From positions 1-37,999 of the forward strand of contig JADFMT010000004.1 in the NCBI GenBank assembly GCA_022563755.1: DNA of 37,999 nucleotides, given 5' to 3'. The notes under the pieces are model-generated. The model saw only the letters and a program-made list of their open reading frames with translations, searched no databases and was not told the origin of the DNA. Each line of letters opens with the position of its first letter. Positions within the stretch are counted from its first letter, which is position 1. The translations under genes and the position numbers were made by a program. The DNA comes from Patescibacteria group bacterium (GTDB taxonomy: Bacteria > Patescibacteriota > Minisyncoccia > HO2-45-28). Positions 1,770 to 3,892 of this stretch are shown here, in pieces.

Positions 1770-1985
1770 GAGCATGTCGAATTCGGTTGCAAAATAGTAG
1801 CACCGTAGTATTATAGAAATACAACTTAGCGGTATATCTGTGGAAATGAGGTGGAATTCCTCTACTGTGCCGCAACGGTAATGCTCTGACTCCGCCAGTT
1901 GACGGACATCAGAGACGAGTCCGATCTTCAAATATATCGAGTTATTGTTTCCGAGCAGGAAAATAAAGGGCGGGTACTCTTTATC
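1770..1985 (+). ncRNA. Cobalamin riboswitch (AdoCbl-like aptamer; boundaries approximate)
   Basis: TGGAAATGAGGTGGAATTCCTCTACTGTGCCGCAACGGTAA fits the cobalamin core GGAAnnnnGGUGnnAnnCCnnnnCUGnnCCGCAACnGU. Downstream GAGTCCG fits the start of a B12 box (rAGYCMG); the rest of the box is divergent. Confidence 0.85.
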
Positions 1986-1988
1986 ATC

Positions 1989-2020
1989 ATCTTTCTTCTT
2001 CGGGAAAGATTTTTGTTTTT
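1989..2020 (+). terminator. Intrinsic terminator between riboswitch and first gene
   Basis: ATCTTTC-ttcttcgg-GAAAGAT followed by TTTTTGTTTTT, ending 9 nt before the ATG at 2030. Confidence 0.7.
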
Positions 2021-2029
2021 ATAACATCT

Positions 2030-2713
2030 ATGAACAAGATGCCGAAAAATGCAAGCGTTTTGTGGACTGGTGGCAAGGATTCTGCTTTAGCTCTTTATGA
2101 GGCAGAATTGTTGGGTTACAAAATTTCAAACCTAGTTACTTTCGCACCCAGTGAACCAGAATTTCTTGCTCACCCTCTTAGTTTTATGAAACATCAAGCA
2201 GAAGCTTTGGGTCTCCCCCATTACATACTAGAAATTAAAGAGCCATTTAAAGAAAGTTATGAGAAATCTATTCATTCTTTAAGAGAGAAATATGGGATAG
2301 ATACATTAATAACTGGAGACATTGCAGAAGTTGATTGCCATCCCAATTGGATAAGAGAATGCGCTAAATATTCTGGTATGGGTGTCCTAACTCCATTGTG
2401 GGGATTTAATAGGCAAGAACTTATTAATAGACTTCTTTCATGCGAATTTAAAGTAATTTTTTCCTGTGTAAAGAAACCATGGTTTATGGATGACTGGCTT
2501 GGGATGGAACTTAATAAGGATTCTTTAGAAAAATTGTGCATGCTAAATACTGAAACTGGGCTTGATATTTGCGGGGAGCAGGGAGAGTATCATTCTTTAG
2601 TTGTAGATGGTCCGCCATTCAAGAAAAGCATTCATATAAGTTCTTATTCAAAGCATGCAAGTGATTCCCTGATGTATATCAGAATACAAAAAGTAGTCTT
2701 AAAAGAAAAATAA
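2030..2713 (+). CDS. PP-loop ATPase, Dph6/diphthine-ammonia-ligase-like (COG2102 type)
   Basis: SVLWTGGKDSALALYEA PP-loop and GEQGEYHSLVVDGPPFKK signature. Confidence 0.88.
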   Translation: MNKMPKNASVLWTGGKDSALALYEAELLGYKISNLVTFAPSEPEFLAHPLSFMKHQAEALGLPHYILEIKEPFKESYEKSIHSLREKYGIDTLITGDIAEVDCHPNWIRECAKYSGMGVLTPLWGFNRQELINRLLSCEFKVIFSCVKKPWFMDDWLGMELNKDSLEKLCMLNTETGLDICGEQGEYHSLVVDGPPFKKSIHISSYSKHASDSLMYIRIQKVVLKEK

Positions 2714-2714
2714 T

Positions 2715-3152
2715 ATGAAAACTATCGCTAAAATTATTATAATTCTTGCTGTATTTTTTGTTGGGTTTTATTTTGGGCAACAACAAGCTTCTAGTCCAGT
2801 TGAGCAAGAAACCGTAAGTACCCAAGAAGCTATTCAGAGAGTAAGTTTAATGCTTGATTTTGGCAATGGCACCATTAAAACGTTTCGGGATATTGAGTGG
2901 AAGCAAGGAATGAACGTTTTTGATCTGCTTAAATCTGTTGCTGGAAAAAATAATCTAGAATTTTCTTACAAAGATTATGAGGGAGACCTTGGAGTATTTA
3001 TTAAATCAATCGATAATCTCGAAAATAGTGCGGAGGGGAATTTTTGGTGGCAGTATTGGGTAAATAACAAGTATGGAAAGGTTGGTTCAAGTAATTATAT
3101 TTTAAAGCCAGGTGACGTAATTGAATGGAAATTAGTTAGGGGCCAACTCTAA
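2715..3152 (+). CDS. Membrane-anchored DUF4430 (transcobalamin-like C-terminal domain) protein
   Basis: N-terminal TM anchor, then FWWQYWVNNKYGKVGSSNYILKPGDVIEWKL typical of DUF4430. Confidence 0.85.
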   Translation: MKTIAKIIIILAVFFVGFYFGQQQASSPVEQETVSTQEAIQRVSLMLDFGNGTIKTFRDIEWKQGMNVFDLLKSVAGKNNLEFSYKDYEGDLGVFIKSIDNLENSAEGNFWWQYWVNNKYGKVGSSNYILKPGDVIEWKLVRGQL

Positions 3153-3703
3153 TGACTCATAAAACTAAAATTATTATCTCACTAGCACTCATTGCCATTG
3201 GAATAGGTGGTAGGTTATTGCCCCACGTCTGGAATTTTACACCTGTTGCTGCAATCGCATTGTTTGCTGGCGTTTATTTGGGTCGTCCCTATGCTTTGGT
3301 CCTTCCGATTATAACAATGTTTGCAAGTGATATTTTTATAGGTTTTTATGAATGGAAGCTTATGCTTGCAGTCTATATTAGCTTTGTTCTTGCAGGGATT
3401 CTTGGCATCTTGATTAAGAAATATAAAAGCTTTGAGACAGTCCTTGCAGGAAGCATTACTGTATCGGTTTTATTTTTCTTAATTGCCAATTGGGCAGTTT
3501 GGCAGTTTACTTCGTGGTACCCAAGCTCTTTTGAGGGACTTATCCAATCTTATATAATGGCCTTGCCATTTTTCCGCAATACTTTAGCTGGAAATATATT
3601 TTATACCCTTGCTATCTTTGGCGCTTATGAAGGGGCTTTTATATGGGTAAGATACAGAAAAGCCCCGTGCGTCAGCAAAAACAAGTCGTTGGGGGTGGGG
3701 TAA
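3152..3703 (+). CDS. DUF6580-like / ECF S-component-like membrane protein
   Basis: Multiple TM helices; RLLPHVWNFTPVAAIALFAGVYLGR...LPFFRNTLAGNIFYTLAIFGAYE pattern; start overlaps the preceding stop. Confidence 0.75.
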   Translation: MTHKTKIIISLALIAIGIGGRLLPHVWNFTPVAAIALFAGVYLGRPYALVLPIITMFASDIFIGFYEWKLMLAVYISFVLAGILGILIKKYKSFETVLAGSITVSVLFFLIANWAVWQFTSWYPSSFEGLIQSYIMALPFFRNTLAGNIFYTLAIFGAYEGAFIWVRYRKAPCVSKNKSLGVG

Positions 3704-3722: not shown

Positions 3723-3758
3723 AAAAACAACGGCGCAGATTTCTGCGCCGTTGTTTTT
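3723..3758. terminator. Perfect hairpin, likely bidirectional terminator
   Basis: AAAAACAACGGCGCAG-attt-CTGCGCCGTTGTTTTT. Confidence 0.85.
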
Positions 3759-3771
3759 ACCACTCGTATCG

Positions 3772-3828
3772 AGGCATGTGGGTCTCTCGATACTAAGTTG
3801 TCGTGGCGGAGGAGGTGGGATTCGAACC
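3772..3828 (-). repeat. Copy B of the tRNA-Ser(GCU) tail repeat
   Basis: See copy A at 1293-1349; overlaps the tRNA-Ser(GCU) 3' end. Confidence 0.85.
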
Positions 3829-3892
3829 CACGGACGACTTTCATCGTCACGGCTTAGCAAGCCGCTGCCTTGAACCGCTCGGCCACTCCTCC
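3804..3892 (-). tRNA. tRNA-Ser(GCU), CCA encoded
   Basis: GGAGGAGTGGCCGAGCGGTTCAAGGCAGCGGCTTGCTAAGCCG...GTGGGTTCGAATCCCACCTCCTCCGCCA on the minus strand; anticodon GCT. Confidence 0.94.

Follow-up and report, generated by a model that had tools for sequence, protein, structure and literature searches.

A predicted AdoCbl-repressed corrinoid-scavenging operon with a CbrT-like DUF6580 protein in a Patescibacteria genome

Introduction

Several described systems for the capture, import and salvage of vitamin B12 share components with the locus reported here. CbrT is the S component of a vitamin B12 ECF transporter (6FNP), is encoded in the L. delbrueckii cluster nrdJ-cbrS-cbrT-pduO, and also takes up cobinamide (PMC5997447). 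BtuM is a solitary B12 transporter (PMC6072759). In Lacticaseibacillus (L. rhamnosus), a DUF4430 protein is encoded beside rtpR, and the same report lists an "additional lipoprotein component of putative cobalamin ECF transporter", which is possibly another protein than the DUF4430 one (PMC9963975). The COG2102/PF01902 family is divided into Dph6 and DUF71-B12; in the latter, ENGE[F/Y]H replaces EGGE-x-E of Dph6, the genes are linked to BtuCDF genes, and a prediction from 2012 gives them a part in B12 salvage, with DUF71-B12 proposed for the role of CbiZ in pseudo-B12 salvage (PMC3541065).

Here, we describe an operon of a CPR bacterium that combines relatives of these components. The question it bears on is how streamlined, largely episymbiotic CPR bacteria obtain the cofactor of an AdoCbl-dependent ribonucleotide reductase (RNR), which in this genome is the only recognised route to DNA precursors; the operon suggests a testable answer.

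Results

Organization of the operon

The window, the whole 37,999-nt stretch analysed, is contig C10 of a genome of 781 kb in 47 contigs, which is estimated to be 100% complete. An aptamer and a hairpin are followed, in this order, by genes of the PF01902, DUF4430 and DUF6580 families, and the whole is enclosed by an inverted repeat:

1297–1349 (no strand): left arm of a 53-nt inverted repeat, tRNA-Ser 3′-end-like; repeat search, 92% complementary to 3772–3824
1815–1965 (+): AdoCbl (cobalamin) riboswitch aptamer; RF01482 below the gathering score, shared core, covariation
1989–2020 (+): terminator-like hairpin and T-run between aptamer and first gene, inferred expression platform; folding
2030–2713 (+): Dph6-like PP-loop ATPase of the DUF71-B12 type (PF01902); Pfam, motifs WTGGKDS and GEQGEYH
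2715–3152 (+): membrane-anchored DUF4430 protein, predicted corrinoid capture; PF14478, profile matches to transcobalamin-2 (TC2), intrinsic factor (IF) and transcobalamin-1 (TC1)
3152–3703 (+): DUF6580 membrane protein, CbrT-like S component, predicted corrinoid importer; PF20221, 6fnp, AF2 model
3723–3758 (no strand): perfect 17-bp inverted repeat with flanking T-run, intrinsic terminator of the operon; sequence
3772–3824 (no strand): right arm of the 53-nt inverted repeat, overlapping the 3′ end of tRNA-Ser(GCT) at 3804–3892 (−)

The three genes are as tightly packed as initially annotated, with a 1-bp gap between the first and the second and a 1-bp overlap between the second and the third, and all three families are recognised by Pfam (PF01902, E 2.6e-37; DUF4430, E 4.2e-15; DUF6580, E 1.6e-45). 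The perfect 17-bp hairpin and T-run at 3723–3758 close the operon as an intrinsic terminator.

An AdoCbl-type riboswitch precedes the genes

The initial annotation had placed a cobalamin aptamer core upstream of the operon and pointed to RF00174. An RF00174 search of the genome gave no match, and that identity was dropped in favour of RF01482, the sister family of the same clan. Specifically, in a permissive Rfam scan of 1700–2100 (401 bases), RF01482 (AdoCbl) matches 1815–1965 (+) with 43.2 bits and an E value of 8.4e-7, and the match spans all 149 model positions. With default settings, Rfam reports no riboswitch in the window, because this score lies below the curated gathering score of 50.

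Across 80 related CPR loci, this core sequence was found 25 times, versus 0–1 times in shuffled sequence, and four CPR loci pass the RF00174 gathering score. Among 22 cores, 94.9% of the helix cells are paired (71.2% when shuffled), and the covariation score is 0.572 versus 0.117 (0 of 500 shuffles). Furthermore, the gene directly after the core encodes DUF4430 in 24 of 25 cases among the CPR DUF6580 loci. Given the core counts, the identity of the next gene and the covariation, riboswitch, DUF4430 and DUF6580 form a recurrent CPR arrangement, of which the window is one case. With a conserved core and covarying helices upstream of B12 genes, 1815–1965 is assigned by homology as an AdoCbl riboswitch, with AdoCbl as its predicted ligand; the aptamer first noted is thus real, but it is not an RF00174 member and it scores below threshold.

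The intrinsic terminator proposed ahead of the genes is represented by a hairpin at 1989–2010 (9 bp, −7.0 kcal/mol, z −2.38; 2 of 200 shuffles equally stable) and, 3′ of it, TTTTTGTTTTT, which ends just 5′ of the ATG at 2030. The hairpin and T-run stand as proposed, with the reservation that the consensus terminator scan does not list the hairpin because its stem is AU-rich, with 2 GC and 2 GU pairs. We infer that 1989–2020 is the expression platform of an OFF switch, in which plentiful AdoCbl would occupy the aptamer and the downstream hairpin would then terminate transcription.

The DUF4430 protein is related to transcobalamin and intrinsic factor

The DUF4430 domain of the window protein lies above the Pfam cut-off, and a profile of 41 CPR DUF4430 sequences matches transcobalamin-2, intrinsic factor and transcobalamin-1 (E about 1e-5), which bears out the domain relationship recognised at the outset. 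The proposed membrane anchor is likewise supported by a hydrophobic N-terminal membrane helix; the window copy has no lipobox Cys.

About 11 CPR loci encode, near DUF6580, a long protein with an alpha/alpha-toroid-like domain (for example L070:5600-7963, L057:2831-5038, L080:5513-7468 and L099:2820-5003), and some of these proteins also contain DUF4430. The combination of toroid and DUF4430 resembles the pair of domains in transcobalamin, although here the beta domain precedes the toroid, and the domain matches are weak.

DUF6580 resembles ECF S components in a genome devoid of recognisable EcfT

A profile of 44 CPR DUF6580 sequences gives a single match in the PDB, 6fnp (E 3.3e-5), which is CbrT. 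An AF2 model of the window protein, computed from an alignment with 37 phage relatives, has a pLDDT of 92 and was used in place of a single-sequence structure, which was discarded (pLDDT 56). Each of the nine best PDB folds for the model is an ECF S component or an ECF complex that holds one; the top folds (RibU, ThiT, PanT and FolT) have TM scores of 0.48–0.58, with Foldseek E values above 0.001. Both the sequence match and the folds agree with the S-component resemblance noted initially. A fold search of the model against viral structures gave nothing credible. A search of one literature library found no paper on DUF6580, and the proposed importer family lies outside every named transporter family.

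His25 of DUF6580 is invariant in the phage set and present in 39 of 44 CPR sequences (alignments A2 and A4). Position 133 is an almost invariant Cys in phages and a mix of Cys and Ser in CPR, with Ser in the window. Judged from these alignments, His25 and Cys133 are candidate cobalt ligands.

A search of the genome for EcfT had been suggested at the outset. The search for EcfT (PF02361; CbiQ) gave no hit in the genome, and EcfT exceeds the cut-off in only 3 of 389 CPR genomes, versus 111 of 389 for DUF6580; among control genomes, it was found in 10 of 14. The absence of EcfT here and its near absence in CPR make a solitary, BtuM-like mode the likelier one, and, like BtuM, DUF6580 can probably do without an ECF motor.

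DUF6580 loci of CPR are rich in B12 markers

DUF6580 is present in about a quarter of the sampled genomes of the same phylum (111 of 389). We collected 80 CPR DUF6580 loci, of which 77, those with the DUF6580 gene recovered, form the analysed set; neighbourhoods of ~5 kb were inspected, and the family names of neighbour clusters were verified by Pfam. Within this distance, DUF4430 occurs in 58 loci, NrdJ in 50, a BtuR or PduO adenosyltransferase in 46, NrdR in 25, the riboswitch core in 23 and thioredoxin in 22. At least one B12 marker is found in 65 of the 77, consistent with the co-occurrence with B12 riboswitches that had been set as a check, and holding for DUF4430 and DUF6580. The other 12 loci have no B12 marker within ~5 kb. 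Two genomes of the same class, G285 (locus L037) and G362 (locus L108), combine DUF6580 with a class III RNR, and no class II RNR was found in either. In view of the 12 loci and these two genomes, it is possible that part of the DUF6580 family serves other clients or binds other ligands.

Phage contigs pair DUF6580 with a BtuB-like receptor

Searched with the DUF6580 profile, IMG/VR yielded 59 viral contigs, in 15 of which DUF6580 directly adjoins a TonB-dependent receptor (L156:4950-7293, L195:3217-5426, L158:4998-7387 and 12 further IMG/VR loci). In three receptors examined, the best family is the BtuB model (E 7e-59, 1.5e-38 and 4e-63), and for one of the three the best PDB matches are also BtuB. 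Genes around phage DUF6580 encode terminase, a virion protein, SSB, UvsX and DnaB helicase, which identifies at least these contigs as phage DNA. No ECF motor was recognised beside phage DUF6580, three DUF6580 queries found no match among isolated phages, and a literature search found no report of a phage BtuB-DUF6580 pair. The pair is possibly a phage-borne B12 uptake cassette and provides independent support for a B12 role of DUF6580.

A B12-dependent ribonucleotide reductase is the predicted client

Searches of the genome with PF02867, NRDD and PF02310 gave nothing. The reading that the operon has no client (no RNR and no B12-binding domain) was nevertheless rejected, since an RTPR model found a 768-aa class II RNR on contig C26. 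This full-length match scores 295 bits with TIGR02505, below the cut-off of 340, contains a B12 insertion domain (PF21995), and has L. leichmannii RTPR (1l1l, E 6.7e-45) as its closest solved relative. The BtuR gene starts 3 bp after the RNR gene, and no riboswitch core was seen at this locus. The AdoCbl-dependent RNR that had been suspected elsewhere in the genome is therefore present, is of the RTPR type, and is the predicted client of the operon. The other four genomes of the host family all have RTPR and none has DUF6580, indicating that the RNR can do without the operon.

The same four genomes leave two origins for the operon, which is either an acquisition or a remnant. Its low GC content (35–39% versus 44%) and the tRNA-Ser inverted repeat fit, without proving, acquisition at a tRNA locus.

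The left repeat arm (1297–1349) looks like what is left of a tRNA gene; outside the inverted repeat lie two tRNA-Ser genes (TGA and GCT). Between the left arm and the riboswitch, 1355–1452 forms a very long hairpin with 46-nt arms that are 89% complementary and a 6-nt loop.

The first gene resembles the DUF71-B12 subgroup

The first protein is a PF01902 member with the PP-loop WTGGKDS and the motif GEQGEYH. Compared with ENGE[F/Y]H, GEQGEYH has the His and has Q for N; the ENGEYH motif also occurs in DUF71 copies outside B12 context. A diphthamide role was rejected, given His in place of the Dph6 Glu in the motif and the position of the gene in a bacterial B12 operon. The initial annotation was right to see no obvious role of this kind, but the gene is no puzzle, given its similarity to the DUF71-B12 subgroup already described (PMC3541065).

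PF01902 proteins exceed the cut-off in only 3 of 389 CPR genomes. One is an AsnB fusion with the Dph6 motif type; the other two, in the window and in L119, are 31% identical and are both encoded downstream of AdoCbl riboswitches, which gives them a chromosomal link to B12 genes. The order in L119 is NrdR-NrdJ-PduO-riboswitch-unknown ORF-DUF71. Most CPR DUF4430-DUF6580 loci have no DUF71, so uptake as such does not depend on it. Among plasmid DUF71 relatives with the ENGEYH motif, no B12 genes were found in the neighbourhoods examined, and the motif by itself is accordingly weak evidence. A DUF71 gene 76% identical to the window copy lies on a contig of a Deltaproteobacteria MAG (L120:1881-2597), between gltX and a biotin carboxylase gene and with no B12 genes nearby; its GC content of 35% in surroundings of 52% points to recent horizontal movement.

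Discussion

We consider it highly probable that the operon is an AdoCbl-repressed corrinoid (B12) scavenging operon. In the proposed pathway, the membrane-tethered DUF4430 protein would capture cobalamin or cobinamide outside the cell and pass it to DUF6580, a CbrT-like S component of six to seven helices, which would import it with no EcfT motor involved. In the cytoplasm, the PP-loop enzyme of the DUF71-B12 type would use ATP to act upon the incoming corrinoid, and its likeliest target in salvage is an amide or carboxylate of a side chain or of the nucleotide loop. Adenosylation of the corrinoid would be the task of BtuR, whose gene adjoins that of the RNR on another contig, and the RTPR-type class II RNR would use the product. 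Capture, import and modification of a corrinoid, as first suggested, are thus supported, with corrections, by the riboswitch, the protein families, the CPR neighbourhoods and the RNR-BtuR pair.

Import without EcfT is not assured, because solitary CbrT failed to transport in E. coli, where it requires its module (PMC5997447). The same operon could instead contain a true ECF S component served by a diverged, unrecognised ECF module or by another ABC ATPase. CPR proteins diverge strongly from Pfam models, and profile searches do miss members, since PF02867 missed the genome's own RTPR in a whole-genome search. We nevertheless regard a hidden motor as unlikely, in view of the disparity between EcfT and DUF6580 across the 389 CPR genomes, the success of the EcfT search in control genomes, and the phage DUF6580 genes, which adjoin a BtuB-like receptor with no recognised motor beside them. 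To our knowledge, the mechanism of motor-free import is still unexplained for BtuM and BioY.

The identity of the cargo leaves more room. The operon might be corrinoid-regulated with an incomplete corrinoid or pseudo-B12 as cargo, which the DUF71 enzyme would remodel; the CbiZ role proposed for DUF71-B12 (PMC3541065) and the uptake of cobinamide by CbrT speak for this, but most CPR DUF4430-DUF6580 loci manage without DUF71, and we rate it as possible rather than probable. It is very improbable that DUF6580 and DUF4430 handle another ligand and are tied to B12 only by coincidence. In favour of this are the generic nature of DUF4430 as a ligand-binding beta domain and the 12 of 77 loci in which no B12 marker was seen; against it stand the markers in the other 65, the position of DUF4430 directly after 24 of 25 riboswitch cores, CbrT and transcobalamin as the nearest solved relatives, and the phage pairing with the BtuB family.

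Beyond the B12-scavenging operon of the window, the balance tilts slightly towards a wider reading, in which DUF6580 proteins are widespread EcfT-independent B12 importers, accompanied by a tethered transcobalamin-like capture protein in about a quarter of Patescibacteria and by a BtuB-type outer-membrane receptor of their own in marine phages, which would feed B12 to infected cells. This would give a probable function to a domain found in 111 of the 389 sampled CPR genomes and would add a second group to the S-component-like importers of B12 that lack an ECF motor.

Comparison with known systems

The window aptamer shares with RF01482 a full-length match and the conserved core, and differs in scoring below the gathering threshold. 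DUF4430 belongs to the same domain family as the beta domain of transcobalamin and intrinsic factor, with profile matches to TC2, IF and TC1, whereas the window protein is a stand-alone membrane-anchored domain that lacks the alpha6/alpha6 barrel; a toroid-like domain is present in some CPR relatives. The first gene product shares with DUF71-B12 the PP-loop motif, the B12-linked context and a His where Dph6 has the catalytic Glu188, but it has Q for N in the motif, and its CPR context is riboswitch, DUF4430 and DUF6580 instead of BtuCDF.

Like BtuM, a solitary S-component-like B12 transporter, DUF6580 is predicted to act without an ECF module. However, it gives no sequence match to BtuM, and in place of the invariant Cys ligand of BtuM it has Cys/Ser133 and a well conserved His25. 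The Lactobacillus cluster nrdJ-cbrS-cbrT-pduO (ECF-CbrT, 6FNP) is mirrored in relatives, where a CbrT-like gene lies beside RNR and adenosyltransferase genes, and a DUF4430 protein is encoded beside rtpR in Lacticaseibacillus. The window genome differs in having no EcfT, in its additional DUF71 gene, in carrying RNR and BtuR on another contig, and in a DUF6580 only remotely related to CbrT (E 3e-5). Each part is thus related to known B12 families; new are the combination, the EcfT-free CPR setting, the role assigned to DUF6580 and its pairing with BtuB in phages.
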